Shown here: in pieces, positions 1,824 through 17,075 of the stretch | Layout of the letters: every line of letters begins with the position of its first letter | How positions within the stretch are numbered: the first letter of the stretch is position 1 | NCBI RefSeq assembly: GCF_009906955.1 | Contig: NZ_CP047656.1 | Coordinates: forward strand, 3,719,001 to 3,783,000 | Length of the DNA stretch: 64,000 nucleotides | DNA from: Paraglaciecola mesophila | GTDB lineage: Bacteria > Pseudomonadota > Gammaproteobacteria > Enterobacterales > Alteromonadaceae | Direction: 5' to 3' | Program-made: the position numbers and the translations under genes | Notes under the pieces: model-generated | The model's database searches: none | Seen by the model: the letters and a program-made list of their open reading frames with translations, nothing else | Told to the model about the DNA's origin: nothing

Positions 1824-1920
1824 TACCCGCTGTCGACTTATTGATGATTGCGTTAAATCATACAAATAATATAACTTCGGGTGATGTGAACAAAATGTGT
1901 TAATTAGGACAAGAGACTCC

Positions 1921-3228
1921 ATGAAAATGAACATCAACAGTAAAACACTCGTTGCATTCATCAGCGTCGCAATGAGTATTACTGCAAGTGCTACCGCCGC
2001 GCCAACCCCAGAACAGTTATACACCAAACAACTACCCATAACCCCAGAGTTAGCATTGCCAGGGCAGTACACAGTTGGTGTGAAAACCCTTGACGTTGTG
2101 CATGAAAAACAACTTAATACTCAGGATTTCACCTCACAGGTTGATCGTCCCTTAACATTAGAAGTGTGGTATCCGGCACAATCTCAAGCGGCTACAACAC
2201 AACAGGCTAGCTATGAAAATGTCACTCGGCTACACAAGCCTTTTAGCCTTGAGGGAACGGCGCATAGAGATGCCCAACCGAAAAGTGACGGGGCGTATCC
2301 GCTTGTGGTGTTATCTCATGGTTATACGGGCTATCGTACGATTATGTACTATCTTGGTGAACACTTAGCCAGCCATGGTTATGTGGTTGTTGGCATTGAT
2401 CATACTGACTCAACAACCCAAGATGTTGACTTTGTGAACGCTGGCTTTTCTGGGTTTCCGAGTACGCTAATTAACCGTGCACGGGATCAGCAATTCGTGC
2501 TCGACTATTTTAGCCAAGATAATTCCGATATTGCTCACATTACCAATACTAATGATGCCGCCGTGATTGGATATTCTATGGGCGGCTATGGGGCAATAAA
2601 CACCATTGGTGCCTGTTACGACTTTCACCAACAGGGCTTGCAGCGTTTAGGTTTTCCGGAGGATGCAGCCAGACAATTGATGCCTGTGTTTAATAGCTGT
2701 GCCGCTGGCAGAGAGTCTGTTGATCCACGTTGGAAAGCCATGATTGCCTATGCTCCTTGGGGCGGCGAAACATCAGTGCACAGTGCGAAATCGATGAATG
2801 AAATAACGGTTCCTAGCTTGTATGTAGCAGGGGACCAAGATGATGTGTCTGGTTATGAAAAAGGCGTTAAAAAGCTATTTGAACAAACCGGCAGCGAAAA
2901 TAAATATTTAATGGTCTATGAAAATGCACGTCATAATATCGCGCCTCACCCAGCGCCAAAAGTCGCTTACGAAACTGACGCGGATTTAGGTCACTACATT
3001 GAACCAAGTTGGAATAACGAGCAGCTTAATCGGATAAATGAGCACATGAGTTTGGCGTTTTTAGATTGCTTCGTGAAAAAAGATGACGGCAAATGCGCTT
3101 ACCTCCCTCAGCGTGACAATGCTACTCAGGTAAAAGATGCCGACGGCAAGCTGACGAAGGCATGGCCAGGGTTTGCAGACAGATGGGCTACAGGTATTCG
3201 TTTTTATCGAGGGGAAAACGCCAAGTAG
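1921..3228 (+). CDS. exported alpha/beta-hydrolase, PAF-acetylhydrolase/dienelactone-hydrolase-like
   Basis: A 435-residue secreted esterase. Residues 1-27 form a signal peptide with a hydrophobic core and an A-T-A-A cleavage region. The fold is marked by the oxyanion-loop LSHGYTGYR (about 131-139), the nucleophile elbow GYSMGG (Ser219), an acid loop AGDQDD and the terminal histidine in ARHNIAP. The long spacing and the YP-x-VVLSHG lead-in resemble the platelet-activating-factor acetylhydrolase branch. It would hydrolyse short acyl or acetyl esters in the periplasm; the substrate is unknown. I used ATG 1921 because the signal peptide starts there; a GTG at 1897 would add eight polar residues in front of it. 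The gene is monocistronic, with a shared terminator after it. Confidence 0.78.
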   Translation: MKMNINSKTLVAFISVAMSITASATAAPTPEQLYTKQLPITPELALPGQYTVGVKTLDVVHEKQLNTQDFTSQVDRPLTLEVWYPAQSQAATTQQASYENVTRLHKPFSLEGTAHRDAQPKSDGAYPLVVLSHGYTGYRTIMYYLGEHLASHGYVVVGIDHTDSTTQDVDFVNAGFSGFPSTLINRARDQQFVLDYFSQDNSDIAHITNTNDAAVIGYSMGGYGAINTIGACYDFHQQGLQRLGFPEDAARQLMPVFNSCAAGRESVDPRWKAMIAYAPWGGETSVHSAKSMNEITVPSLYVAGDQDDVSGYEKGVKKLFEQTGSENKYLMVYENARHNIAPHPAPKVAYETDADLGHYIEPSWNNEQLNRINEHMSLAFLDCFVKKDDGKCAYLPQRDNATQVKDADGKLTKAWPGFADRWATGIRFYRGENAK

Positions 3229-3348: not shown

Positions 3349-4548
3349 TTAATGCTTCGCGGCGTAGTCTTCAACGGCTTGCCAAACACGTAAAAAGTTA
3401 CCACTTAATATTTTTTTAATGTCAGCTTCTGAATAATCACGATCCATCAAACCTTGTACTAAATTCGGATAGGTGGATACGTCCTTTAGGCCTTCTGGTA
3501 GTGAGTCACCCACACCGTCATAATCAGAACCAATGCCCACATGGTCAATTCCAATTAGTTTTACTACGTGGTCAATGTGATCAAGGACAGTATCTACATT
3601 TGCAAAGGGAAAGGGATTTTTTGCAATGTATTCTTCATCAAACGCGGCGACAAGGGGGCTGTCCTCGCCTTCTTTATCCACCAATGCCTTGCGCTTGGCT
3701 GTCATTTGGTTGCGCCAATTCTGCGAAAGTTTGCTCACAAACGTTGAGCCGAAATTGATTTGTATCACCCCGCCATTTTCACCTAGAGCTTTGATCATGT
3801 CGTCGTCCATGTTGCGCTCAAAACCCGGTGTGAATTTGCGCAATGATGAGTGAGAAGCAATAACAGGCACCTTGCTAATGTCGATAGCTTGATAAAATGC
3901 CTGATCTGATACATGAGAAATATCTACCATAATGCCGATATTGTTCATTTCGGTGACAAGGGTTTTACCGAACGGACTTAATCCTTTCCATTTACGGCGT
4001 ATATCGTAGGACGAATCGGCAATATGGTTACTTTGTGAGTGGGCAAGGGTGATATAACGAATCCCCCGCTCATAGAATGTCTTCAGATTGTCTAAATCAC
4101 CTTGAATAGGAGATCCATTTTCCATGCCCATAGGTAGTGAAATCAAGCCTTGTTCAAACTGGCTTTTAACATCCGCTACGCTTTTGGCTATGGCAAACTT
4201 ATCTGGCGCTCGGCCAACAATCGCTTCAACATAATCAATTAATTTGTGGGCCAAGGCCGTGGACTCATCTGAATCATCTAAGCTTGCCGGCACATAAATA
4301 GACATAAAAGGGGCATTTAAGCCACCTGCCTTTGCCCGCGGGTAGTCAAAATCACCGTCTTCGGTGGCTTTAGTGACGTCTACCCATTGCTCGTTGACGC
4401 GATAGGGAACATCAATGTGTGAATCGATGAGTATCGTGTCTTGAGTTAGCTGAGTTGCTTCTTCAGAGGCTTGATAAGCTCCGTGCACCGAACTGGAAAA
4501 AGCCAGCGTACAGGCAATGAATAATGCAGTTTTGTGTAAGGTTTTCAT
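3349..4548 (-). CDS. exported membrane-type dipeptidase (peptidase M19)
   Basis: A 399-residue zinc dipeptidase of the renal dipeptidase family. The N-terminus (MKTLHKTALFIACTLAFSSSVHG) is a signal peptide, so the enzyme should be periplasmic or outer-membrane attached. Binuclear zinc ligands are visible in order: HID in DSHIDVPY, the bridging Glu in MGMENGSP, His in AHSQSN, His in DISHVSD, and the late GIGSDYDG block. M19 enzymes cleave dipeptides, including D-residue-containing ones, and some act on lactams. The start is ATG at 4548 with AAGGA seven bases upstream. An in-frame upstream start would add 45 residues without function. Its neighbours do not specify a pathway. Confidence 0.88.
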   Translation of the reverse strand: MKTLHKTALFIACTLAFSSSVHGAYQASEEATQLTQDTILIDSHIDVPYRVNEQWVDVTKATEDGDFDYPRAKAGGLNAPFMSIYVPASLDDSDESTALAHKLIDYVEAIVGRAPDKFAIAKSVADVKSQFEQGLISLPMGMENGSPIQGDLDNLKTFYERGIRYITLAHSQSNHIADSSYDIRRKWKGLSPFGKTLVTEMNNIGIMVDISHVSDQAFYQAIDISKVPVIASHSSLRKFTPGFERNMDDDMIKALGENGGVIQINFGSTFVSKLSQNWRNQMTAKRKALVDKEGEDSPLVAAFDEEYIAKNPFPFANVDTVLDHIDHVVKLIGIDHVGIGSDYDGVGDSLPEGLKDVSTYPNLVQGLMDRDYSEADIKKILSGNFLRVWQAVEDYAAKH

Positions 4549-4681
4549 GTCGTTCCTTTGATTATACTTTTTATAATATGACTGTTTGAGGGCAAATCGT
4601 TTTGTACACACGGAGGAAAGTGGTGTGTATATGGATGGTATAGAAGAAGGATACGTAAAGTAAAGAGTAGGCAAAGAACGC

Positions 4682-4716
4682 AAGAGAAAAGCCGCACTTG
4701 CTAAGCAAGCGCGGCT
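4682..4716 (-). terminator. Rho-independent terminator of the alpha-galactosidase gene
   Basis: On the minus strand, AGCCGC.CTTGCT pairs with AGCAAG.GCGGCT and is followed by TTTTCTCTT. It starts 13 bases beyond the stop of the GH36 gene. Confidence 0.75.
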
Positions 4717-4729
4717 AAGTGTTTGCAGG

Positions 4730-6886
4730 CTAGACCTTCGTTAGGTGAAATAGCAAGCTGCTTTGCGGAGTCAATAGCGGCATTTGCATGCCTAATTGCA
4801 TAAGTAATTCGCCGCTAAAAATTTCACCATCTACAGCGCCCAGATGGTTAGCAAACCCAAATAAACCGGATTTAGGCCATTTATCGGTATTTTTGATTGG
4901 CCAAATAATATCGAGTTTGTATTGGCTATTTTTCTCTAAACCGGCAAATCTATATTGGTCAGGTAAGGTGGCTGAACTGCATGCGACTAAGCTATACGAA
5001 AAAAGTGCTTGAGACTTGTCTTTGGCAACGATACCTAAACCATTCATATATGCGGGAAGCTCCAAGCGGAATAAGTCACCACTGTGCACTAAGGCGCGAT
5101 GTTGCTTGTACAAGTCGGTCATGGCTTTAAGTTCGACTTTTTCCCCGTCGGTTAGCTCGCGTAAGTCCATTTCCATGCCCATGTGACCGAATAAGGTGAC
5201 AGAGGCACGCATTTCCATAGATACAGTGCGGTGGGTAATGTGACATTCTCTTGGGCCAACATGTGAGCCCATCAATTCAGCAGGCAAGAAATAAGAGAAG
5301 CCATTTTGTATTTTCAAACGCTCCAGTGCATCGTTTGAATCTGACGTCCACACGCGATCCGTACGTGCAAGCACGCCATAATCAGCACGACCACCGCCTG
5401 AAGCACAGCTTTCTACTTCAACATTCGGATGGGTTTCACGCACTTTGTCAAGCAAACGGTAAACAGCATGTATTTGATTGTGCCCACCAGGCTTGCCGCT
5501 ATGGTTGCCTTGATGATTTAAATCGCGGTTCATATCCCATTTTACATAGCTAATATCATATTCTGATAACAACGAATCTAGCCGTTCAAATAAATAGTCA
5601 AAGACCTCTGGTCGAGATAAATCGAGTACCAATTGATTTCGACAGTTAATTTGTTTGCTAACTTCGTTACCCAACACCCATTCAGGATGCTGACGATAAA
5701 GCTCACTATCTGGGTTGACCATTTCAGGTTCAAACCACAAACCAAACTCTAGGCCTTGCGCTTTTACGTGATCAATGACAGGGGTGAGGCCTTGAGGATA
5801 AAACGCTTTGTCCACATACCAATCCCCTAAACCAGCAGTGTCATCGTTGCGTCCATTGAACCAGCCGTCATCTAAAACGAAACGCTCAGCACCCATTTGG
5901 GCTGCACGTTCTGCGAGATCTTTAAGCGTCGCTACGTCGTGGTCGAAGTAAATGCCTTCCCAAGTATTGTAATGTACAGGGCGGGGCTTATCGTGGACAC
6001 TTTGGCGGATAATATGACTACGTACATATTGATGAAACTGCTGAGATAGCACTGATAAGCCTTGGTCTGTATAGCTAGCAAACAATGTAGGGGTTTGATA
6101 GCTCTGATCTTTTTCTAGCACAATTTCACCAGGGAAAAGCAACTCGCCCATTTGTACATAAGAGCGCCCGTCAGCCATTTTCTCAGCGACGATCTTGTGA
6201 TTACCGCTCCAGCCTAAATGAAATCCGTAGGCTTCACCCTGAGCTTGATTGGTGGTTTTTGGGTGGAGTAATAGCGCTGGGTAGCTGTCGTGGGAGGTTT
6301 TACCTCGGCGGTTTTCGCGCACGTATGAACCAAAAAATTGATCCAAGGTATGTTGTTGGAACTCTCCTGCCCAATGACCTTCAAAGCCAATAATTTGATC
6401 AAAATCCGCTGGTGTAGGGATCGTCGCCGCAGCGCACCAGTCTAGAGTGATTGATTGATCGGTTATATTATTTAACGCGGTATCAAAGGTAAGAACATCA
6501 GTTTCAGCGTCTAGCTTAATTGTAACTACAACTTGTACACCGCGGGCAGCATCAATACTGGTTAATGTTGCACTGTGTTCGTTATCTTGCACAATTGATT
6601 TTAATTTAGGATTCGCCGCCCACTGATCCGCGTCACCGTGCAAACTTAACCCTGGTAAGCCGGTAAAACCCTGGCCTGAAGTAGGCGTAAGACACAAATC
6701 AAGCTCAACAATAGGTGACACCGGTGCTTCTTGACGTAACCGCAACGCGCGCATCATGTCGCCGGTTGATTGTTCTGATAGCTTGGCACGCCAATAGATG
6801 ATCTGTGGAGTATCGTACCCAACATCTAAAATCAGACTGCTTTTTTGCCCATGAAGTGCAATGAATTGTGCGGCATGTTGCGTCAT
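4730..6886 (-). CDS. alpha-galactosidase, glycoside hydrolase family 36
   Basis: A 718-residue GH36 enzyme: N-terminal beta-supersandwich (about 1-290), TIM barrel (about 300-640) and C-terminal sheet domain. The catalytic nucleophile is D451 in YVKWDMNRD and the acid/base is D516 in RVWTSDSND. FVLDDGWF, GLWFEPEMV and SCASGGGRADYG are the other hallmark barrel motifs. It hydrolyses terminal alpha-galactosyl residues with retention. There is no signal peptide, so the substrate must be imported first. It is transcribed away from the TBDR/halogenase/SapC/symporter/GlpD cluster and probably belongs to it. The region before the ATG reads GGGCCTCCTT, so no good Shine-Dalgarno is present on this strand, which is odd for such a long, confidently coding gene. 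Confidence 0.93.
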   Translation of the reverse strand: MTQHAAQFIALHGQKSSLILDVGYDTPQIIYWRAKLSEQSTGDMMRALRLRQEAPVSPIVELDLCLTPTSGQGFTGLPGLSLHGDADQWAANPKLKSIVQDNEHSATLTSIDAARGVQVVVTIKLDAETDVLTFDTALNNITDQSITLDWCAAATIPTPADFDQIIGFEGHWAGEFQQHTLDQFFGSYVRENRRGKTSHDSYPALLLHPKTTNQAQGEAYGFHLGWSGNHKIVAEKMADGRSYVQMGELLFPGEIVLEKDQSYQTPTLFASYTDQGLSVLSQQFHQYVRSHIIRQSVHDKPRPVHYNTWEGIYFDHDVATLKDLAERAAQMGAERFVLDDGWFNGRNDDTAGLGDWYVDKAFYPQGLTPVIDHVKAQGLEFGLWFEPEMVNPDSELYRQHPEWVLGNEVSKQINCRNQLVLDLSRPEVFDYLFERLDSLLSEYDISYVKWDMNRDLNHQGNHSGKPGGHNQIHAVYRLLDKVRETHPNVEVESCASGGGRADYGVLARTDRVWTSDSNDALERLKIQNGFSYFLPAELMGSHVGPRECHITHRTVSMEMRASVTLFGHMGMEMDLRELTDGEKVELKAMTDLYKQHRALVHSGDLFRLELPAYMNGLGIVAKDKSQALFSYSLVACSSATLPDQYRFAGLEKNSQYKLDIIWPIKNTDKWPKSGLFGFANHLGAVDGEIFSGELLMQLGMQMPLLTPQSSLLFHLTKV

Positions 6887-7426
6887 AAGGAGGCCCTAAA
6901 TTAAGTAAATATGTTCAGAATTAAATGAATAGGGTATTTTACGCGTTTTTTAAAGCATATAAATAGTATTATTTAACTTCTGGTAACATATTGTGAAATT
7001 TGTGGCCTATATTTGAAACCTAGAGAGCGCGCTACAAGCCACTGAAATCAAGGATGCGGTAAATTTTACCTTTAATTAACCAAAGACAAAAGCACTCTAC
7101 TCATTAGCGACTATGCTGTTAAAGGTTGTTTCTTATTTACTTCATTAATCTCGTCGTTTTTAATTGGCAAGCCAATGAAAAGTAACAACTTTCCTGGTTT
7201 TATTGGACCGTTTTGAATGGTTGAGTTGAATCCAGTTTTAGACCTTAGTCATGTTGCGCATATGTTGACAAATTGTATTAATACTATTTAACATACATAT
7301 CACTAGGTGAGCTGAGTGGCATGATCCTATAGTTATGCGAGTAGTTTGAGTGGAACGGTAAACTTGCAAAGCGCCAGAAAAACAAAGAACACATCATATT
7401 AACAGGACACAAACGGGGCACATCCC
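6887..7426. other. 540-bp divergent regulatory region, alpha-galactosidase / TonB receptor
   Basis: This AT-rich stretch must hold the divergent promoters of the GH36 gene (minus) and the TBDR (plus). I see a GGTAAA-t-TTTACC dyad at 7058-7070, an AGCGCGCT palindrome at 7026-7033, and a TTGACA at 7264-7269 without a convincing -10 at normal spacing. No open frame with gene-like features and no riboswitch could be recognised. Confidence 0.5.
7058..7070. promoter_or_regulatory. candidate operator palindrome between GH36 and TBDR genes
   Basis: GGTAAA and TTTACC form a perfect 6-bp inverted repeat around one base, about midway between the two divergent genes. The form suits a dimeric repressor such as a LacI or GntR protein, but no regulator gene for this cluster lies in the window. 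Confidence 0.35.
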
Positions 7427-10186
7427 ATGAAAAAATCATATCTTTGGTCGGCAGTTAAAACCGCCCTATTAGTACCTACTGTTGCTGGTTTATCTATGCA
7501 AGCAACAGCACAAGAAGCAAGCGACGACAGCAATCTTGAAGTGATTCAGGTTCGCGGGATTGTTAGCAGCTTAAAACGCGCAATGTCTGATAAAAAAGAA
7601 GCGCTTATTGTTTCTGACGGCATCGCAGCAGAAGATTTAGGTAAATTCCCTGACTTGAACGTTGCTGAATCTTTGCAACGTATAACGGGTGTTTCAATCG
7701 ACCGTAGTGGTGGTGAAGGACAAGCTGTTACCGTGCGTGGTTTTGGTCCTCAATTTAACACTGTATTGGTTAACGGTCGCCAATTGGCCACTGACAGTGG
7801 TGGTCGTGAGTTTAACTTTGACGTACTAGCGGCAGATCAAATTACTGGCGCTGACGTATACAAAAGTACACGTGCTAACCTGCAAGAAGGCGGCATAGGT
7901 GCAACAATTAATGTTTCGACCGCACGCCCGTTCGACTATGAAGGCTTCCAGCTTATCGGTTCAGTGAAAGGTATGTACGAAACCCTTTCTGAAGAAACTT
8001 CTCCGTCTGCTTCTTTCCTTGTTAGTAACACCTTTAACGACGACAAAATGGGTGTGCTTTTAGCCGTTTCTCGTCAAGAGCGTGATATTCAAATTAACCA
8101 GGTGGGTACTGCCGGCTGGCGCCCTGGTCAAACAATCTCTAACCGTGACGACGGTGTATTGTTCACCAACGCTTATATACCACGTAACTGGGATCAGGTT
8201 ATTGATCAGCAAGAGCGTACTCGTACTAACGCAAGCTTGGTTTTCCAATTCGCACCGTCGGATGAAGTGAATATCACCCTTGATGGTTTCGTGTCTAAAT
8301 TCGAAGTAGACTCACAAGTGACGGATTTAGCGGCATGGTTTGAACCTGACCGCGTAGCGAATGCTACGATTGACGACGCAACCGGCACGTTGCTCACATT
8401 CGATCAGCAAATTGGTATCCACGGTGGTAGCGGTGACCCCGCATCTGATTTCGTATCTCATACGCGTAATTCACGTGACTCTCAAAGCGATGGTTTCGGA
8501 TTAAACGTTGAGTGGGATATCACCCCTCAACTAAAAGGTACTTTCGATTTATCAACGTCATCTGCTGAGAATGATCGTGCCGGTAAGGACCGTTTTAACG
8601 TAGTGGGTATTATTAATAACTACGCGTTTGACGGGACAAGCGGTGTACCTGTTGTATCTCACGAAGGGTTTGGTGGCGACACGTTACCTGATGCGAACCG
8701 TGCACGTTTACACTACAACGAAAAAGGCTTGACCTTTACTGACGAAGACGAAATTAATGAGTTTAAAGCTGATTTTGTGTATTTAGCAGATTCAGATGTT
8801 TTCCAAAAAGCACAATTCGGTGTTTATCGCCAAGAGCGTGAAAAATCAGCATTTCAAATTTATGGTAGCCAATGTGCATTCTGTGGTTATGGTACTGAAG
8901 CGCCAATTGACACAATCGGGTTTGAACCTTTCACAGCGAAGAACTTTTTCTCTGGCTACCCTGAAACCTTCTATAGTTATGACGGTGATGCCTATGTAGA
9001 TTTCCTTGCTGCATCGGGTAACCCAATTGTACCTACGCTACAAAACAACCGTTATACTATCAACGAAGACATTACGAGCTTATACCTAGACTTCACCTTC
9101 TTGTATGACATTGGTGATATGCCGCTAGCCGTAAATGTTGGTGCGCGTTATGCTGAAACTGATATCAGTGTTGCTGCAGTTCAAAGCTTTATTAAAGATG
9201 TTGTTCCTACAACGGATTTAACCTTGTTCTCGAACGAGTTTGGCCCAGCGACTGACATTGAACAGGGTGACAGCTACGCAAACTTATTGCCAAGTGTGAA
9301 CGTGAAGTTAGATCTTACTGATGAAATGGTTTTACGTTTCTCTGTATATGATTCAATGACACGCCCAACTATGTCTCAGTTATCACCAGCGACAACCTTC
9401 AATGAGCCTCGTCGTCAAAACTTAACGGCAAGTGGTGGTAACCCGTCGCTTAAGCCGTTTACCTCTGAAAACTGGGATTTATCGTTCGAGTGGTATTACG
9501 CCGATGCAAGTTACTTCACTTTTGCGGTATTTAGCAAAGAAGTTGAAGACTTTATCGTGACCTTGACCGGTGAAGAGACGTTTACTTTCTCTGATCGTAC
9601 CGCAGCTGATGGATTCAGATGTAACAACGACACTGGCGATAACTTGTGTGCAGTTGGTCTGTCTCTAGATGATACTCGCCCTGATTTCGATGTAGTGGCA
9701 AACACTGAAGAATTGAATGGAGCAAGCGAGGTTTATACGGTTAGTCGTCCGCAAAATACCGAGACAACCAAAGTAACAGGTTACGAAGTGGCGTTGACTC
9801 ACGTATTCGAAAATGGTTTTGGTGTTATGGCGAATGCCACTGTCGTTAACGCTGATACAGACTTCTTGGAAGGCTTAGGCGATTCGCAAAACTTGGTTGT
9901 TTTCTACGAGCAAGACAATTGGCAAGCACGTATTGCATTTAACAACCGTGAAGCATTCTTACGTAACGTTGATAACGGGTTTAATGGCGAGCCTATTAAC
10001 ACGCAAACCTTTGGTCAATGGGACGTCAGTGCAAGTTATGACATCAACGAAAATTTCACCGTGTTCGTAGAAGGTATTAACGTAACGGAAGAAGAGTTAG
10101 TGCAAACTGGCCGTTTCGACAATCAGGTTTACTCGATTGAAGACAACGGAGCTCGCTATGCAGTGGGCGTTCGCGCCAAGTTCTAA
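7427..10186 (+). CDS. TonB-dependent outer-membrane receptor (carbohydrate-type)
   Basis: 919 residues with a signal peptide (about 1-28, ending ATAQ). A TonB-box-like segment EVIQVRGI is followed by a plug domain (IAAEDLGKFPDLNVAESLQRITGVS..., VRGFGPQFNTVLVNGR) and a long 22-strand-type barrel. It ends in phenylalanine, as expected for outer-membrane barrel insertion. It belongs to the proteobacterial family often found in sugar-utilisation loci and would import a ligand into the periplasm using TonB/ExbBD energy. It is the first gene of the plus-strand cluster, with a terminator-like hairpin behind it, so downstream genes may be expressed at a lower level or from their own promoter. The ligand is probably the alpha-galactoside cleaved by the divergent GH36 enzyme; this is inferred from context. 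Confidence 0.92.
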   Translation: MKKSYLWSAVKTALLVPTVAGLSMQATAQEASDDSNLEVIQVRGIVSSLKRAMSDKKEALIVSDGIAAEDLGKFPDLNVAESLQRITGVSIDRSGGEGQAVTVRGFGPQFNTVLVNGRQLATDSGGREFNFDVLAADQITGADVYKSTRANLQEGGIGATINVSTARPFDYEGFQLIGSVKGMYETLSEETSPSASFLVSNTFNDDKMGVLLAVSRQERDIQINQVGTAGWRPGQTISNRDDGVLFTNAYIPRNWDQVIDQQERTRTNASLVFQFAPSDEVNITLDGFVSKFEVDSQVTDLAAWFEPDRVANATIDDATGTLLTFDQQIGIHGGSGDPASDFVSHTRNSRDSQSDGFGLNVEWDITPQLKGTFDLSTSSAENDRAGKDRFNVVGIINNYAFDGTSGVPVVSHEGFGGDTLPDANRARLHYNEKGLTFTDEDEINEFKADFVYLADSDVFQKAQFGVYRQEREKSAFQIYGSQCAFCGYGTEAPIDTIGFEPFTAKNFFSGYPETFYSYDGDAYVDFLAASGNPIVPTLQNNRYTINEDITSLYLDFTFLYDIGDMPLAVNVGARYAETDISVAAVQSFIKDVVPTTDLTLFSNEFGPATDIEQGDSYANLLPSVNVKLDLTDEMVLRFSVYDSMTRPTMSQLSPATTFNEPRRQNLTASGGNPSLKPFTSENWDLSFEWYYADASYFTFAVFSKEVEDFIVTLTGEETFTFSDRTAADGFRCNNDTGDNLCAVGLSLDDTRPDFDVVANTEELNGASEVYTVSRPQNTETTKVTGYEVALTHVFENGFGVMANATVVNADTDFLEGLGDSQNLVVFYEQDNWQARIAFNNREAFLRNVDNGFNGEPINTQTFGQWDVSASYDINENFTVFVEGINVTEEELVQTGRFDNQVYSIEDNGARYAVGVRAKF

Positions 10187-10245
10187 GCTTGTTACAAATA
10201 AGTGCAGTGTGTGATTTCATGCTGCGCATATCTGATTACAACATC

Positions 10246-10276
10246 ATGGCTCGCTAGTATTAAGCGGGCCATTTTT
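10246..10276 (+). terminator. Rho-independent terminator after the TBDR gene
   Basis: ATGGCtCGCT pairs with AGCGgGCCAT around a 7-base loop and is followed directly by a short T run. It would separate the receptor transcript from the halogenase operon, at least in part. Confidence 0.65.
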
Positions 10277-10303
10277 CCTATAAAATAATAGGTTGAATAA
10301 GGT

Positions 10304-10334
10304 ACCCCATAAAGGATGTCAGGCTTTATTGGGT
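10304..10334 (+). other. leader hairpin upstream of the halogenase gene
   Basis: ACCCCATAAAG and CTTTATTGGGT can pair over 11 bases with one mismatch and a 9-base loop. There is no U run behind it. It could stabilise the operon mRNA or be an operator. Confidence 0.3.
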
Positions 10335-10441
10335 AGGTTATTTAACGGTAATTTAAGTGTTTACCTCCTCACTTAAGTTAGAAAGATAATAGTGTGCAAA
10401 CTATCGTTCTCACACTTGTTACTACGCGGACTAATCCACTC

Positions 10442-11968
10442 ATGTCAAAAGCAGTAAATAAAATAGTCATAGTCGGTGGCGGCACTGCAGGTTGGTTAAC
10501 GGCCGCTATTATTGCTGCTCAGCATAAAACAGACGATAACAATGGATTGCAGATCGTGCTGGTTGAATCTTCTGATATTCCCACGGTCGGGGTCGGGGAA
10601 GGTACTTGGCCTACCATGAAGAATACGCTGCAACAAATTGGTTTAAAAGAAAGCGAGGTGTTTGCGCGTTGCCACGCGGGGTTTAAGCAAGGTGGTAAGT
10701 TTGTCGACTGGGTGCATGGTAATGGCGACTTTTACTATCATCCTTTTACTGTTCCTCTTGGTTACGGTCGAATAGATCTAGCGCCGTACGTAGAAAATAT
10801 CGAGCATTACGCTGTAGAGTCTAACTTTCAACACCATGTCTGTGAGGCCGGATTGGCGCCGCGCTCAATGGCTGAGGCCGAATACAAAGGCCAGTGTAAT
10901 TACGCCTACCACCTTGATGCGGGCGAGTTTGCTGAAGTACTTAAAGAGCACTGTAAAAATAACCTCAACGTGACTCAAGTAATTGGCACGGTTGATAACG
11001 TTAATTTAAACAATGATGGTGCTATTGGTTCAATTACACTGACTAGCCAAGAGCAAATCGACGGTGATTTGTTCGTTGATTGTACCGGTTTTTCTTCTTT
11101 ACTTTTAGGTCATGCATTAGATGTTCCTTTCATTTGTGCTGATAAGGTTTTGTTTAATGACTCAGCCTTGGCATTGCATATGCCCTATGAGGACCCGGCC
11201 AGTCCTATTGCTAGCCATACCATAGCAACAGGACAGAATGCCGGTTGGATATGGGACATCGGTTTAACCCATAGACGTGGCGTTGGTCATGTTTATTCCA
11301 GTCAATATTTGTCAGATGATGAGGCAGAAGCAAATTTGCGGCGTTATTTAGGCCCCAAGTCAGATGATATCCCAGTACGTAAGATTAGCTTTAAATCAGG
11401 GCATCGAGAACAAGTTTGGAAGCAAAACTGCGTGGCAGTGGGTATGTCCGCTGGTTTTGTCGAACCTTTAGAAGCCACCGCTATTATGTTGGTTGAAATC
11501 TCAGCCCGCTTTATTGCGGATAACATTCCGCCGGATGCGAGTTTAACGCCGATTATCGCCAAGCGCTTTAATCAGCAAATGGCTTATCGCTGGTCCCGTA
11601 TTCTCGATTTTCTTAAATTACATTACATGTTGACCAAACGTCCTGAGCCATATTGGCAGGCGCATACCGATCCGGATTCCATTCCTGATTCATTGAAAGA
11701 AGATTTAGCGTTATGGAAATTTCGTGGGCCGATCAGTGCGGATTTTGATGCTGCAATCGAGCTATTCCCTGCGGCAAGTTATCAATATGTGTTGTATGGC
11801 ATGGGGTTTAAGCCTGACTTTAGTCGCCAGCCTCATCTTTATAATCAGCAACACAATGCTCAGAAGATAATGTTGCGTAATCAACAGCTTACGCAGCAGT
11901 TGCTGGAAACCCTTCCTCCTCACAGAGAATATATAGAGCGGTGGTTAAGCACCCAGAGTATGAGATAA
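10442..11968 (+). CDS. flavin-dependent (tryptophan-type) halogenase homologue
   Basis: 508 residues of the PrnA/RebH-like superfamily: the FAD-binding GGGTAGW (residues 12-18), the VGEGTWP block, the FKQGGKF segment whose Lys86 aligns with the catalytic lysine, DGDLFVDCTGF, and the GWIWDIGL segment. In proven halogenases the last is WxWxIP; here the proline is glycine, so halogenation is not assured. Members found beside TBDRs and SapC proteins in marine bacteria have no established product and are probably not antibiotic enzymes. The start is ATG 10442, placing the Rossmann motif eight residues in; an upstream in-frame GTG at 10394 is possible. Translation is tightly coupled to SapC, which starts two bases after the stop. 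Confidence 0.85.
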   Translation: MSKAVNKIVIVGGGTAGWLTAAIIAAQHKTDDNNGLQIVLVESSDIPTVGVGEGTWPTMKNTLQQIGLKESEVFARCHAGFKQGGKFVDWVHGNGDFYYHPFTVPLGYGRIDLAPYVENIEHYAVESNFQHHVCEAGLAPRSMAEAEYKGQCNYAYHLDAGEFAEVLKEHCKNNLNVTQVIGTVDNVNLNNDGAIGSITLTSQEQIDGDLFVDCTGFSSLLLGHALDVPFICADKVLFNDSALALHMPYEDPASPIASHTIATGQNAGWIWDIGLTHRRGVGHVYSSQYLSDDEAEANLRRYLGPKSDDIPVRKISFKSGHREQVWKQNCVAVGMSAGFVEPLEATAIMLVEISARFIADNIPPDASLTPIIAKRFNQQMAYRWSRILDFLKLHYMLTKRPEPYWQAHTDPDSIPDSLKEDLALWKFRGPISADFDAAIELFPAASYQYVLYGMGFKPDFSRQPHLYNQQHNAQKIMLRNQQLTQQLLETLPPHREYIERWLSTQSMR

Positions 11969-11970
11969 CC

Positions 11971-12735
11971 ATGAGCACACTTGTTGAATTAAGCAATACC
12001 CTACATAAAGAATTAAAACTTCGCGAAAGCTGCCTCGCTGACTTTGCAGCTAGCCAACAGCTTATGCGCCTTCGCGTGCCAGAGGTAGGAAAAGCAGCCA
12101 CCAATTTTCCTTTATTTTTCTCACGTAACCAGCAAGACGGTAGTTGGGTGTTATCAGCACTTGGTAGTTTTGAGCCGATGCAAAATGTGTTTGTAGAGCA
12201 AGGACGCTGGAATGCTATTTATCAACCCATCAGTTTACAAACCTATCCGTTTTATTTGATGCAGTCTCCTAAGGCGGAAAATAGCTACACCATTGGCATT
12301 TTAGAAACCAGCGACGCTTTTTCGAAAGATAGCGGTGAAGCTATTTTTGATAGTGCCGGTAGAGCATCTATGCATTTGAGCAAAGCGAAAAACTTGCTTG
12401 AAGCAAGTATCAAGCAAGACATAGACACTTATCGTTTTATGAAAGAAGCAGAGTCACTAGGTCTAATTAAACCTATCGACTTGCAATTAATATTCGAAGA
12501 TGGAAACACCCAAAATATTGCTGGCCTGTGCACCATCGATGAAGATAAATTGCAAAGTTTAACGACTGAAACGATATCAGCATTAAATGAGAGTGGATAT
12601 TTGATCGCGATACACGCCATGTTGCTCTCTATTTACCAGCTCAACTTATTACTTAGAAAGCACAATGAACGCAATGCCCATAATAAGATCACTCAACTTA
12701 AAATCGAAGTAGCGAAAGATAGAGTGGCGTCTTAA
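11971..12735 (+). CDS. SapC family protein (first copy)
   Basis: 254 residues of the SapC-like family (named after a Campylobacter S-layer-locus protein), with the family pattern FP..FSRN, GRWNAIYQP..LQTYPF and a C-terminal AMLLSIYQLN-LLLRK helix. There is no signal peptide or membrane segment, and the biochemical role is unknown. The ATG lies two bases beyond the halogenase TAA, so the two are translationally coupled. The second SapC in this cluster (16296-17075) shares the same architecture but differs in sequence. Co-occurrence with TBDRs and flavin halogenases in marine proteobacteria suggests a role in the same uptake or modification pathway, but that is inference. Confidence 0.82.
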   Translation: MSTLVELSNTLHKELKLRESCLADFAASQQLMRLRVPEVGKAATNFPLFFSRNQQDGSWVLSALGSFEPMQNVFVEQGRWNAIYQPISLQTYPFYLMQSPKAENSYTIGILETSDAFSKDSGEAIFDSAGRASMHLSKAKNLLEASIKQDIDTYRFMKEAESLGLIKPIDLQLIFEDGNTQNIAGLCTIDEDKLQSLTTETISALNESGYLIAIHAMLLSIYQLNLLLRKHNERNAHNKITQLKIEVAKDRVAS

Positions 12736-12754
12736 CCCTTTACACTTGTTTTGT

Positions 12755-12780
12755 TTTTGCCACATATCAGGGTGGCAAAA
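12755..12780 (+). other. intercistronic hairpin between SapC and symporter genes
   Basis: TTTTGCCAC and GTGGCAAAA form a perfect 9-bp stem with an 8-base loop. No U run follows on the plus strand, so it is more likely a processing or mRNA-stability element than a full terminator. Confidence 0.4.
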
Positions 12781-12847
12781 GTCTAGATTATTAAGCACAT
12801 AAATAGCAATCATCGTGCAAAACACATGATTGTCGAGGAAATATCAG

Positions 12848-14308
12848 ATGTCAGAAAATATGGTTCAAGCGGCGGTATTCGCCTTGGTTACAGGCATTAT
12901 TGGCTTGCTGACTTATTTGAAATGCCGCGGTCATGGACACAACCAACAAAGCCAAAATAAGGAGTATTTCTTAGCTGGCGGTGGCTTAACTTGGATGTTC
13001 GTTGCAGGCTCTATTACCTTAACTAACTTGAGTACAGATCAATTGGTAGGTATGAACGGTAACCAAATGGCATTACTTGCTTGGTGGGAATTCGCAGCGG
13101 TTATCGGTCTGATTATTCTGGCAAAAGTCTTTATTCCTATTTACTACAAATACAATTGTACGACGACCACGGAATTATTAGAAAAACGCTATAAAAATAA
13201 GCATATTCGAGCGGTTATCGGTATGTTGTTTTTCTTGGGGAATGCGCTGATATACATGCCTGCAGTAATCTACTCAGGGTCACTATTTATGCAAACTATG
13301 TTCAACGTAGACATTCCACTCATGTACATCGCCATCGCCTTTGCTGCGTTGGGTGCAGTGTATGCAATTTTCGGCGGTTTGCGCGCGGTAGCGGTATCTG
13401 ATACGTATTCAGGGGTATTGTTACTGACCATGGCGGTTTTAGTGGTATTCTTATCCCTTGCTGCTATCGATTTTGACTTCACAGGTATTCCTGCTGAGCG
13501 CTTGACGCTTGTAGGCGGTCCTGACTCGCCTTTACCTTGGCCAACACTGCTTACTGGCATGATATTCATTCAAATGTATTACTGGGGGACTAACCAAACG
13601 ATTACCCAGCGTGCTATGGCTGCACCAAATGTAAAAGAAGCGCAAAAAGGTGTATTTGCCGCAGCAGGTATTCGCATTCTAATCGTACCCGCAATTATCG
13701 TTCTACCAGGTATTGTGTCGTTTAAATTGTACGGCGATATCGGTGATGCTGCTTATGGCAGAATTGTAGGAGACGTGATGCCACTATGGCTAACTGGCGT
13801 GTTTGCAGCGGCGATGGCAGCGGCCGTACTTTCCACGTACAACAGTTTATTGAACTCAGCGACGGCTTTATACGTATGTGATATTCACGAGGCATACGTT
13901 AACGATAACCCTAACGTAGTGCGCTTAAGTGGCTGGGTAACGGCTATGTTGACGATATTGTCATTGGTATTGGTCCCTATTTATCAGCAAGCCGACAGTA
14001 TTATTAACTTGTTGCAACAGTTAAATGGTTTATTAAGTATGCCAATATTGTCAATATTCGTGGTGGGGCTGGTGTTCAAAGATGTTGATGCAAGAGCGGG
14101 CATTGCAGCTGTGATTTTCGGCGTATTGCTATACGGCTCACTGACTTTTGATTTCTCGCCTGTGTATACAACGTTGCATTACATCCATCTTATGCCAATC
14201 ACTCTAGTGTCATGCATTAGCTTTGCCTTGTTCATTAATCGTTTTGTATTAGGACAACGAGCAAAATTAGCTTGGGGCAGTAATGACGGCCTTGAAGCAG
14301 CAAAATAA
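12848..14308 (+). CDS. sodium:solute symporter (SSS family)
   Basis: 486 residues with about 13-14 hydrophobic segments and SSS hallmarks: the N-terminal FLAGGGLTWMFVAGSITLTNLSTDQ stretch and the R.....SLLNSATALYVCDIH stretch near residue 335. It resembles the SGLT/sugar branch of the family and would bring a sugar or sugar-like solute across the inner membrane with Na+. ATG 12848 has GAGGAAA eight bases upstream; an in-frame TTG six codons earlier has no such site. It sits between SapC and the GlpD-like gene in one direction, so it is the probable inner-membrane step for the solute delivered by the TBDR. Confidence 0.88.
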   Translation: MSENMVQAAVFALVTGIIGLLTYLKCRGHGHNQQSQNKEYFLAGGGLTWMFVAGSITLTNLSTDQLVGMNGNQMALLAWWEFAAVIGLIILAKVFIPIYYKYNCTTTTELLEKRYKNKHIRAVIGMLFFLGNALIYMPAVIYSGSLFMQTMFNVDIPLMYIAIAFAALGAVYAIFGGLRAVAVSDTYSGVLLLTMAVLVVFLSLAAIDFDFTGIPAERLTLVGGPDSPLPWPTLLTGMIFIQMYYWGTNQTITQRAMAAPNVKEAQKGVFAAAGIRILIVPAIIVLPGIVSFKLYGDIGDAAYGRIVGDVMPLWLTGVFAAAMAAAVLSTYNSLLNSATALYVCDIHEAYVNDNPNVVRLSGWVTAMLTILSLVLVPIYQQADSIINLLQQLNGLLSMPILSIFVVGLVFKDVDARAGIAAVIFGVLLYGSLTFDFSPVYTTLHYIHLMPITLVSCISFALFINRFVLGQRAKLAWGSNDGLEAAK

Positions 14309-14340
14309 CGTTTAAATTAAATTTAATTATCGGAAGAGAC

Positions 14341-15981
14341 ATGAACAACCTGAGAAAGAGTAACATCCGTAAATTGCCGAAAGGGACGTTTGACACATTG
14401 ATCATTGGCGGCGGCATTAATGGCGCCGTGGCCGCGGCGGCGTTAGCTGCTAAAGGTGTGAAGGTCGCGTTGATTGACAAAGGTGATTTCGCGGGCTTTA
14501 CCAGTTCTAACTCTTCAAATTTAGCCTGGGGTGGGATTAAATATCTTGAAAGTTACGAATATGGTTTGGTAAACAAGCTGTGTAAAAGCAGAAATCACTT
14601 GATGCGTAGCTATCCATCAACGGTGAAAGAGATCCGCTTCTTGACCAGTATTCAAAAAGGCTTTCGCTTTCCACCTGCATTCATTTATATGGGAACGTTG
14701 CTGTACTGGTTTATGGGACGTCTATTCACCAGAATGCCGAACTACCTCACCGGCGGTAAAATCAAATCGTTAGAAAAGGTGATTAATACTCAAAACGTCA
14801 GTGGTGGCTTTGAATATTCAGATGCCTATTTACAAGATAATGATGCGCGCTTTGTGTTTAACTTCATCCGCTCAAGCATGAGCTACGGGTGCATTGCCGC
14901 TAACTATGTTGAGTCGCTTGGCTCTACCCGCAAAGATGATGTGTGGGTCACAAAAGCCAAAGACAGCTTAACTGGCGAAGAATTTGAGATATCTTCTAAA
15001 GTGTTGATAAACGCTGCTGGTCCTTTTGTTGACCCACTGAATGAATTGAATGATGAAAAAACGGAGCATCATCATGTGTTTTCAAAAGGTATTCATTTAA
15101 TCGTTGATCGCGTGACAGACAGCAACAAAGTACTGACGTTCTTCGCTGACGATGGGCGCTTATTCTTCGTTATCCCTATGGGGCCAAAAACCTGCATCGG
15201 GACAACGGATACCCAAGTGGATAACCCCTACGCACATGTGACTGAGGCAGATCGCCAATTTGTACTCGACAATGTTAATAAGCTTCTTGCGCTTGATAAA
15301 CCACTGACCAAGGAAGATGTCATTGCTGAACGCTGCGGGGTTCGTCCATTAGCGATAAAAGGTAATGGCGGTAAGGCCGATTGGGTACAACTTTCGCGCA
15401 AGCACGCTATTGATCAAAATGCTCAGCACAAATACATGTCTATTTTCGGCGGCAAGCTGACAGATTGTATTAATGTTGGCGATGAAGTGGCGGGTATCGT
15501 AAAAGAGTTTGGCATTGATTTACCGTACGCCGATTTTAAATGGTACGGAGAACCAGACGATAGCGTACGGGATGAGTTTTTCCACAGAGCCAAGTTGATG
15601 AACTTTGATGCCTTAACACCGGCGACGTCTTCTGAGCCGTTGACATCGCGTTTTTGGCGTCGCTATGGACGAAACGCCATTAATATGCTTGAAGCCATTC
15701 GTGAAAACCCGGAAAAGGCAGAGTTGCTAATTGAAAACTCTGAATATTTACGAGTAGAAATTGAGCACGCAGCACAACGAGAAATGGTCACTAAATTAGA
15801 AGACTTCTTGCGTCGACGTTCGAAAATATCGCTAGTGGTACGCCAAGAAGATATTCTTGCCGCACCAGGGTTACGCGAGGCATGTGAAATATTGTTCGGA
15901 GACGAAGCTGAGGCTAAGTTACAGGAATATATCACCAGCGTAGGTAAAGATGTTAGTCCCCGTGAAGATGTGGTAGCTTAA
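14341..15981 (+). CDS. GlpD-family FAD-dependent dehydrogenase (glycerol-3-phosphate dehydrogenase-like)
   Basis: 546 residues, slightly longer than E. coli GlpD (501). The FAD-binding IIGGGINGA motif is at residues 22-30. It is followed by FTSSNSSNLAWGGIKYLE, FEYSDAYLQDNDAR, FVIPMGPKTCIGTTDT, ERCGVRPL and IFGGKLTDC, which correspond closely to GlpD blocks that bind FAD and glycerol-3-phosphate, including the Arg of GVRPL and the Lys of FGGKL. It should oxidise sn-glycerol-3-phosphate or a close analogue and pass electrons to quinone at the membrane. It follows the symporter by 32 bases with a GGAAGAG ribosome site. Being inside an alpha-galactoside locus rather than with glpK/glpF is unusual. 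Confidence 0.8.
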   Translation: MNNLRKSNIRKLPKGTFDTLIIGGGINGAVAAAALAAKGVKVALIDKGDFAGFTSSNSSNLAWGGIKYLESYEYGLVNKLCKSRNHLMRSYPSTVKEIRFLTSIQKGFRFPPAFIYMGTLLYWFMGRLFTRMPNYLTGGKIKSLEKVINTQNVSGGFEYSDAYLQDNDARFVFNFIRSSMSYGCIAANYVESLGSTRKDDVWVTKAKDSLTGEEFEISSKVLINAAGPFVDPLNELNDEKTEHHHVFSKGIHLIVDRVTDSNKVLTFFADDGRLFFVIPMGPKTCIGTTDTQVDNPYAHVTEADRQFVLDNVNKLLALDKPLTKEDVIAERCGVRPLAIKGNGGKADWVQLSRKHAIDQNAQHKYMSIFGGKLTDCINVGDEVAGIVKEFGIDLPYADFKWYGEPDDSVRDEFFHRAKLMNFDALTPATSSEPLTSRFWRRYGRNAINMLEAIRENPEKAELLIENSEYLRVEIEHAAQREMVTKLEDFLRRRSKISLVVRQEDILAAPGLREACEILFGDEAEAKLQEYITSVGKDVSPREDVVA

Positions 15982-16295
15982 CCTTGTTCGAGGCGGTGCA
16001 ACGTTAGTACGTTAGTACCGCCTCGGATACAGCGAGAATAAAGAGTGATGTGTCAGATTATGAACGAGATTTTTCTCTTGAATGAACAAGAGGCAACTAT
16101 TTCATTAACATTCGTGACAATACTCAATAAATAAAAGATACTTGCTGTTGTGGAATTAGCATTTAGGGACCGCATATTTAATGGCCTTGAGGCCATTTTT
16201 TTATATCTGTTCATCAGACGGTAACACATATGACGGTTTGCTAATTAGCGTTAACAAATAACCAGATTTGAACATTAAAGTAAGAGATATCCTCT
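15982..16295 (+). other. 314-bp gap with two hairpins before the second sapC
   Basis: The gap holds a 9-bp inverted repeat (CGAGGCGGT / ACCGCCTCG, 15989-16025) without a U run, then the terminator described separately. The remaining 90 bases before the second SapC start are AT-rich and may hold its own promoter. No small gene was recognised. Confidence 0.45.
16180..16203 (+). terminator. Rho-independent terminator of the halogenase-glpD-like operon
   Basis: AATGGCC-ttga-GGCCATT followed by seven Ts. It closes the operon running from the halogenase to the GlpD-like gene and leaves the second sapC as a separate unit. Confidence 0.82.
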
Positions 16296-17075
16296 ATGAC
16301 AATCAGCTATATCCCTCTTGATAAAGAGAAACATAAAGATTTAAAAATCAACTTACAGCATGACTTTGGCTACGCAAAAGAAGCCCACATAGCTGCTGCT
16401 TCTATCCGCGAGTACGCGCAGTTAGCCAGTGTTATGCCAGTTGTTTTTGTTAAAGACCCGAATTCTGAAAACTTCCATTCAGTGACCATGTTAGGCACGG
16501 AAAAAGGCAGCAACTTATTTATTCATGAAGGTAAATGGCAAGTGCATTGTTTACCTATGAATATTCAGCGCTATCCGTTTGATGTTCGCCCTGATGGCGA
16601 GAAGCTTGGTGTATTCTTTGATGAAAACAGCGCATTAATCACTGATGATGGTGAACCTGTTTTTACTCCTGAAGGCGAGCCTAGCCCGTTTTTAGAGAAT
16701 CGTCAGCAACTACTGTCTGAACTTGCTAACAGCGAAATGGCAACCCAGCGCTTCATTAAGAAATTAGTTGAGCTAGACTTGCTTGACCCAATTGAATTGC
16801 TAGTGAACTACGCTAATGGAGAAAAGCGCAACATCACAGGCATGTTCAGTGTGAGCGAAAAGCGTCTTCAAGACTTAAGCGAAGAGCAAGTGGTTGAGCT
16901 ACACAAAAGTGGTTTCTTAGGCGCTGCTTATGCTGTGTTAATGTCGTTAGGTCAGCTGAATCGTTTGGTTCACTTGTCGAACAACACGGATAAGCCGATT
17001 CAGAACTTACAGTTGCGTGTTGGTGATGCTATCAGCAAAGAGCAACCTGCAGCAGAGCAGCCAGCTAACAGCTAA
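16296..17075 (+). CDS. SapC family protein (second copy)
   Basis: 259 residues, clearly SapC-like: VMPVVFVKDPNSENFHSV, GKWQVHCLPMNIQRYPF, and the C-terminal helix AVLMSLGQLNRLV. It parallels the first copy (GRWNAIYQP..LQTYPF, MLLSIYQLN-LLL) over its whole length but is well diverged, so it is an old paralogue rather than a recent duplicate. There is no signal peptide or membrane helix, and its molecular function is unknown. A terminator stands on either side, so it is expressed alone. Its position next to the cluster suggests it was once, or still is, part of the same function. Confidence 0.82.
   Translation: MTISYIPLDKEKHKDLKINLQHDFGYAKEAHIAAASIREYAQLASVMPVVFVKDPNSENFHSVTMLGTEKGSNLFIHEGKWQVHCLPMNIQRYPFDVRPDGEKLGVFFDENSALITDDGEPVFTPEGEPSPFLENRQQLLSELANSEMATQRFIKKLVELDLLDPIELLVNYANGEKRNITGMFSVSEKRLQDLSEEQVVELHKSGFLGAAYAVLMSLGQLNRLVHLSNNTDKPIQNLQLRVGDAISKEQPAAEQPANS

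Follow-up and report, generated by a model that had tools for sequence, protein, structure and literature searches.

The locus described here lies in a stretch of 64,000 nucleotides of the Paraglaciecola mesophila genome (C1:3,719,001-3,783,000 of 5.04 Mb), which is referred to as the window. It includes a GH36 alpha-galactosidase, a TonB-dependent receptor (TBDR), a sodium symporter, a GlpD-like dehydrogenase (GlpDL) and an ester hydrolase, and it is probably a catabolic cassette for galactosyl-glycerols, the most likely substrate being the headgroup of digalactosyl-diacylglycerol (DGDG) from the galactolipids of chloroplasts and cyanobacteria. The membranes of algae, plants and cyanobacteria count galactolipids among their most abundant lipids, and the headgroup of DGDG is alpha-Gal-1,6-beta-Gal-glycerol; an ester hydrolase, an alpha-galactosidase, a beta-galactosidase and glycerol catabolism taken together fit this lipid. 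The use of an alpha-galactoside plus glycerol appears well supported by gene linkage, and phylogenetic profiles suggest the acyl-ester and beta-galactose steps.

An earlier note on this DNA had described a GH36 gene divergent from a TBDR, a sodium symporter and a GlpD-family dehydrogenase. The long open reading frames (ORFs) lie where the note had placed them, and their Pfam and NCBIfam families agree with that layout; the view of the GH36 protein as cytoplasmic is in line with inspection by eye, in which no signal peptide was apparent. A halogenase gene and two SapC genes in the same interval were absent from the note. Its proposal of galactosyl-glycerol use is well supported, in that glpK, canonical glpD or GlpDL, and galactose genes are found time and again with the GH36/symporter cassette, but its choice of floridoside is not favoured over the headgroups of galactolipids in view of the co-occurrence with the hydrolase and with LacZ or GH42; the same GH36 may act on floridoside as well.

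In the pathway that we propose, the cutinase/lipase-like hydrolase would strip the acyl chains outside the cytoplasm, and (di)galactosyl-glycerol would enter through the TonB receptor in the outer membrane and next through the sodium symporter in the inner membrane. GH36 would release the alpha-galactose, and a beta-galactosidase (LacZ or GH42, encoded elsewhere in the window genome and within the cassette in some others) would split the beta-galactosyl-glycerol. Glycerol could then be processed by GlpK (C1:3.956 Mb) followed by GlpDL, and galactose by GalM and the enzymes of the glpK-containing operon, which is of the De Ley-Doudoroff type, and/or by the products of galT/galK, which are located at C1:2.26 Mb. 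We see an even chance that the cassette represents, more broadly, a patchily inherited and dedicated galactolipid-recycling system of marine Alteromonadales, consisting of a secreted deacylase, TonB/sodium import, alpha- and beta-galactosidases and pathways for glycerol and galactose inherited along with them; GH42 and LacZ would be interchangeable in such a system, and GlpDL would be able to replace GlpD.

Linkage of the cassette to glycerol genes

In an order-level sample of 295 genomes, the symporter has a match of E 1e-100 or better in 15, and the identity is at least 66% in 12 of them, the intact-cassette genomes. Eleven of these 12 have glpK and/or glpD/GlpDL within ~20 kb of the symporter, and the arrangements number at least five. 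Four genomes, all of one genus, have glpK divergent from a DeoR-type gene and accompanied by glpD; the cassette is neighboured by glpK and glpD in G160 and G234, by glpD-glpK in G052, by glpD in G159, and by GlpDL in the window genome, and by GlpDL together with glpK in G272. In G292 glpK stands among galactose genes and GlpDL is on another contig without the cassette; the symporter match of this genome was flagged with one in-frame TAA, and an open frame of 483 aa was nonetheless read there. All nine cassette-neighbour glpK genes of the 12 genomes match GlpK at 1e-100. Canonical GlpD is present in eight of the 12, with six full-length sequences scoring 748-774 bits and two that are cut by the end of the stretch scoring 459 and 293 bits, one of the latter falling under the cut-off. 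Halogenase and SapC homologues are present in all 12 intact cassettes, the halogenase homologue together with the receptor. The symporters of 52-57% identity (G182, G014 and G039) fall outside the 12, and no glycerol genes were found within the 19.5 kb examined around them.

The same association is visible from the side of GlpDL, whose family comprises 53 loci across the genome collection, reaching from alteromonads as far as Solimonas, SAR324 and a metagenome-assembled genome (MAG) of Leptospiraceae. Within the sequence stretch examined per locus, GH36 is present in 16 of the 53 (at L021 only as a piece at the locus edge), the symporter in 17 and glpK in 19, and these neighbours are undercounted for loci near contig ends. 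The kinase of L029 scores as xylulokinase-like and was left out of the glpK count, which would be 20/53 from clustering alone; 29 of the 30 kinases scanned match GlpK at 1e-100. The gene order of the Pseudomaricurvus locus is GH36-TBDR-SSS-glpK-GlpDL (SSS, sodium/solute symporter), and GlpDL-cassette loci are found twice (L013 and L051) in one strain of P. arctica.

Accidental linkage of GlpDL to the cassette was considered and is partly true: in four cassette-less relatives (L009, L015, L022 and L025) a membrane dipeptidase (M19) gene and GlpDL are found at the same site. Since GlpDL occurs near this site without the cassette and is not cassette-specific, the case rests on the recurrence of glpK and glpD elsewhere, and accident does not explain why glycerol genes recur near the cassette in differing arrangements. 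The M19 gene (window 3349-4683), which is next to GlpDL in the four relatives, marks the site of insertion or loss of the cassette.

Two variant cassettes were noted in passing. The Pseudomaricurvus cassette (L028, 17315-21617) includes, in addition, a GH97 glycosidase gene, galT and, judged by eye, a galK-like ORF. In G224 (C42, locus L098) the cassette is decayed: GH36 (589 aa) and the receptor (272 aa) are both shortened and the symporter, halogenase and SapC genes are gone; the hydrolase, glpK, the DeoR-type gene and glpD remain.

A glycerol kinase within a galactose operon

The earlier note had seen no glycerol kinase in the window and had pointed to the rest of the genome for glpK and galactose genes. 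Both FGGY-kinase matches of the genome are indeed outside the window, one being GlpK and the other a xylulokinase. The kinase gene glpK lies ~220 kb from the cassette in a galactose-oxidation operon, which is contiguous with the cassette in relatives. In the window genome the run is galM-glpK-GntR/FCD-SMP30 lactonase-2-keto-3-deoxygalactonokinase (DGOK)-SDR, beside mraZ. In the Aliiglaciecola-type loci (L008, L016, L017, L018 and L036) the block from GH36 to GlpDL is followed directly by galM-glpK-GntR-lactonase-(KDPGal aldolase)-DGOK-SDR and then by mraZ; the KDPGal aldolase of these runs is lacking in the run of the window genome. Most simply read, this arrangement would go back to a single ancestral locus, the parts of which came to lie ~220 kb apart in the window's clade. 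The position of glpK within a galactose-oxidation operon is a signature of a substrate that combines galactose and glycerol.

In the alignment of eight loci, the divergent promoter region of the cassette carries a conserved AATACTATTTA element close to each of its ends, and in some relatives a TTGACA-containing block upstream of the receptor is conserved as well. An operator shared by the cassette promoters and the glpK/galactose operon was sought with palindrome, GntR-like and dyad scans, which gave conserved blocks within the cassette promoter only. In L036 and L008 there are weak partial matches, with 2-3 mismatches, in front of the SDR gene.

The GlpD-like dehydrogenase

Judged from its sequence, GlpDL is a divergent member of the GlpD family. 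It remains below the NCBIfam cut-offs for GlpD (249.4 bits vs 360 for PRK12266 and 213.4 vs 352 for PRK13369), and searches of the window genome with either GlpDL itself or the GlpD model gave GlpDL as their single match and brought up no canonical GlpD. By GlpDL (99% identical), Paraglaciecola chathamensis S18K6 is the nearest relative with a name in the collection searched. The AlphaFold model of GlpDL (pLDDT 86.1) aligns with E. coli GlpD-DHAP (2r4e) over 481 residues with Z 35.7 and a root-mean-square deviation of 3.0, and with 2rgh at Z 35.0. Among the 50 structure matches listed, GlpD of E. coli and Bacillus and GlpO of Streptococcus have Z 32-36 and the others at most 26.4, the first match below the GlpD/GlpO group being a distant Mycoplasma GlpO.

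We take R54, Y55, H233, R317 and K354 of E. coli GlpD to be its substrate-site residues. Four of the five aligned positions (Y, H, R and K) are kept in 51/51 GlpDL sequences, and in all 51 R54 is replaced by K67; the kept residues Y68, H252, R335 and K372 are those of canonical GlpD in 57/57 sequences. Positions W63, K67, D375 and C376 are fixed in 51/51 GlpDL, whereas the cassette-linked canonical GlpD have H, R, T and Y there (6/6). Compared with the glycerol-3-phosphate dehydrogenases and oxidases of the GlpD/GlpO type (2qcu, 2rgh and 3da1), GlpDL shares the fold over its full length and four of the aligned substrate-site residues, but differs in its low identity (~25-28%) and in the four family-specific changes at or beside the substrate-site residues. 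GlpDL is taken as the presumptive resident glycerol-3-phosphate dehydrogenase of the genomes that carry it. In Thalassotalea, GlpDL is located downstream of an ABC-transporter cluster, the ATPase of which best matches UgpC, below the cut-off.

Alpha-galactosidase, ester hydrolase and beta-galactosidase

GH36 is the sole Melibiase-family match in the genome, with the Melibiase barrel detected at 3.3e-130 alongside the GH36 N and C domains. D451 (KWD) and D516 (TSD) align to D478 and D548 of AgaA, which we take to be the catalytic nucleophile and acid/base. The enzyme would be expected to cleave an alpha-galactoside, and we infer that a galactosyl-glycerol is its substrate.

The hydrolase is proposed as the putative acyl esterase of the system. 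Its likelier start is the ATG at 1927, its N-terminus looks signal-like by eye, and the GYSMG motif is kept in 15/15 aligned homologues (13 orthologues and two paralogues). The best 60 of its 191 PDB matches are esterases, cutinases, lipases, PET hydrolases and PAF-acetylhydrolases; a single-sequence fold (pLDDT 30.8) was too low for use. The GH36 clade of the window (at least 51% identity, the rest being at most 47%) occurs in 13 of the 295 genomes, a number that includes the decayed G224, which lacks the symporter and is not among the 12 intact, and an orthologue of the hydrolase is found in the same 13. It is encoded within ~15 kb of the cassette in ten genomes and elsewhere in G272, G160 and G234. 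Within the window's family it is present in 12/12 GH36-positive genomes vs 0/12 negative ones, negative denoting genomes of this family (f1) without a GH36 match, and at E 1e-40 it was found in 0/50 genomes having only other GH36 matches (35-47% identity). The cut for an orthologue, at least 398 bits, was chosen after the scores were seen; it leaves out the 38% match of G029, with which the tally at E 1e-40 is 14/295, and second, weaker copies in G000, G292, G214, G031 and G052 were not counted. A search for GlpDL in these genomes gave no comparable association (4/12 vs 2/12). Ten neighbours of the hydrolase were scanned, and they include galK, galT and galE-type genes, a GFO/IDH/MocA oxidoreductase and a TPR protein.

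A beta-galactosidase accompanies the cassette in a complementary way: LacZ is present in nine of the 12 intact-cassette genomes and a cassette GH42 in exactly the other three (G052, G106 and G159, belonging to three genera; 3/13 of the GH36-clade genomes). Either LacZ or a cassette GH42 is thus found in 12/12 intact-cassette genomes vs 3/12 cassette-less family members, where it is LacZ only and such a GH42 is found in 0/12 (Fisher 0.0003, post hoc and with phylogeny ignored); the co-occurrence tests were chosen after part of the data had been seen. In the window genome LacZ is located at C1:2.769 Mb and GH42 at 0.517 Mb. A Cellvibrionaceae MAG locus (L026) has the order GH42-GlpDL-GlpK, with no GH36 within the stretch examined.

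Weighing the alternatives

It is conceivable, but in our view rather unlikely, that the main substrate is floridoside or isofloridoside, the alpha-galactosyl-glycerol osmolytes of red algae, and that the esterase and the beta-galactosidase are bystanders. GH36, GlpK and GlpD would suffice for floridoside, the linkage to glycerol genes is strong and the cassette GH42 occurs in only a few genomes; furthermore, isofloridoside can be made by a GH36 enzyme via reverse hydrolysis, according to the available part of PMC8509150. However, because floridoside requires only an alpha-galactosidase and glycerol genes, it leaves unexplained both the 13/13 co-occurrence with the cutinase/lipase-like hydrolase and the presence of a cassette GH42 exactly where LacZ is absent among the intact-cassette genomes, and as a substrate it appears less likely than galactolipid headgroups. 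A generic use of alpha-galactosides (melibiose, raffinose or stachyose), with the glycerol genes nearby by accident, is improbable. It would agree with the best solved-structure matches of GH36, which are named alpha-galactosidases such as AgaA, a type that presumably acts on raffinose-type substrates, and with the M19-GlpDL site that exists without the Paraglaciecola cassette; but it accounts neither for glycerol genes in 11/12 genomes, in varied orders and with two dehydrogenase families, nor for the hydrolase being confined to genomes with the window's GH36 clade when compared with the 50 that have other GH36 matches. We see little chance, too, that GlpDL oxidises some other polyol or polyol phosphate and is not a glycerol-3-phosphate dehydrogenase. 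Its scores under the GlpD cut-offs and the four fixed residues adjoining the aligned substrate-site residues would allow such a shift, but the canonical identity of Y68, H252, R335 and K372, the separation in Z between GlpD/GlpO and the remaining matches listed, the glpK nearby in 19 of 53 loci and the fact that a genome with glpK yielded no GlpD homologue besides GlpDL speak against it.

The galactolipid headgroup itself also has to be weighed against several observations. The profiles show joint inheritance of genes and not what the gene products act on. On the side of the hydrolase, no galactolipase is named among the best 60 of 191 PDB matches, all being generic esterases, cutinases and lipases, so that the protein could be an acetyl- or polyester hydrolase, or a general esterase; fatty-acid genes, which would be expected near it, are not among the ten neighbours scanned. 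LacZ alone is weakly enriched (9/13 vs 3/12, p 0.047), which may reflect a general breadth of sugar use, and the LacZ/GH42 pattern is incomplete because GH1, GH35 and other GH2 beta-galactosidases were not searched. Neither LacZ nor GH42 is linked to the cassette in the window genome, whose GH42 is only 38-39% identical to the cassette GH42. As for the glycerol genes, G282 has none within 21 kb to the left and 28 kb to the right of the symporter, four of the 11 positive genomes represent one genus and one arrangement, and GlpDL is not specific to the cassette, being present in 4/12 cassette-positive and 2/12 negative family members. The operon of the window genome showed neither galactonate dehydratase nor KDPGal aldolase, and neither was searched elsewhere. 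Finally, the best cassette-promoter element has no match in the distant operon of the window genome (L058, 0 matches vs 1.36 expected).

Relation to known systems

The locus resembles the carbohydrate utilisation loci of the Xanthomonas/Caulobacter type, which we take to combine a TonB receptor, a flavin halogenase and SapC, in sharing the module of a TIGR01782 receptor, halogenase and SapC; unlike them, it is linked to glycerol catabolism and to a cutinase/lipase-like hydrolase. The open-literature matches listed, subscription journals being mostly outside, include no experimental work on a bacterial locus for galactolipid headgroups or floridoside, and no paper joining floridoside with TonB-dependent was found in the open literature searched.

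Among those matches, the nearest precedent for a sugar-headgroup locus is one galactolipid prediction for Alteromonas macleodii. In the available part of Manck et al. 2020 (PMC7190382), the TonB transporter MASE_00935 of strain ATCC 27126, which is next to a predicted alpha-galactosidase, has galactolipids as its predicted substrate, with no rationale given there, and is up 1.35 log2 under carbon limitation; its neighbourhood is like the window locus in that a TonB transporter stands beside an alpha-galactosidase. That MASE_00935 is orthologous to the window cassette is a guess, drawn from the four genomes of one genus (g3) that we tentatively assign to Alteromonas. Galactosyl-glycerols from galactolipids were proposed as the natural lac substrates by Egel (1979, 1988), as cited in the available part of PMC8333865. 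The E. coli lac operon in Egel's view is like the galactolipid pathway proposed here in that a beta-galactosidase acts on galactosyl-glycerols, and it differs from the window system, which has a TonB receptor, an alpha-galactosidase, a sodium symporter, a putatively secreted hydrolase and linked glycerol genes. Our proposal would provide a marine counterpart to Egel's idea on the natural substrate of LacZ, and it supplies marker genes for the turnover of lipid headgroups in the sea. A rise of galactosylglycerol in a red alga co-cultured with Bacillus, reported in the available part of PMC5928181, has no bearing on the locus.

Layout of the locus and neighbouring genes

The features of the locus are collected in Table 1. 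The scripted ORFs are the longest open frames, families are named from Pfam and NCBIfam, and gene labels come mostly from BLAST matches to named examples.

Table 1. Features of the proposed galactosyl-glycerol locus, in window coordinates
Feature	Position	Strand	Basis
Alpha/beta-hydrolase (PETase/cutinase/PAF-acetylhydrolase-like)	1897..3228	+	PF12740 9.5e-19, PF03403 7.5e-13; GYSMG motif
GH36 alpha-galactosidase, 718 aa	4730..6886	-	PF02065, PF16875 (N), PF16874 (C)
Divergent promoter region, GH36 / TonB receptor	6887..7426		Alignment of 8 loci, scans
TonB-dependent receptor, TonB-Xanth-Caul subfamily	7427..10186	+	TIGR01782 5.5e-185
Flavin-dependent (tryptophan-type) halogenase family protein	10394..11968	+	PF04820 (Trp_halogenase) 2.3e-121
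SapC family protein (first)	11941..12735	+	PF07277 2.6e-52
Sodium/solute symporter (SSS), vSGLT/YidK-type	12830..14308	+	TIGR00813 5.2e-65, PRK10484-like
GlpD-like FAD dehydrogenase (GlpDL)	14341..15981	+	DAO 5.3e-30, DAO_C 4.3e-12
SapC family protein (second)	16296..17075	+	PF07277 9.4e-67

The best PDB match of the symporter is vSGLT (2xq2, 6.4e-46), and GlpDL starts 32 bp past the symporter end. The second SapC gene also adjoins GlpDL in the cassette-less relatives L009, L022 and L025, and it is uncertain whether it is part of the system. A separate polysaccharide-lyase region, probably for alginate, extends over window positions 35767-60165 and encodes a chondroitinase-B family protein (PF14592), an alginate-lyase/heparinase-type protein, a DUF4962 protein and a TonB receptor.

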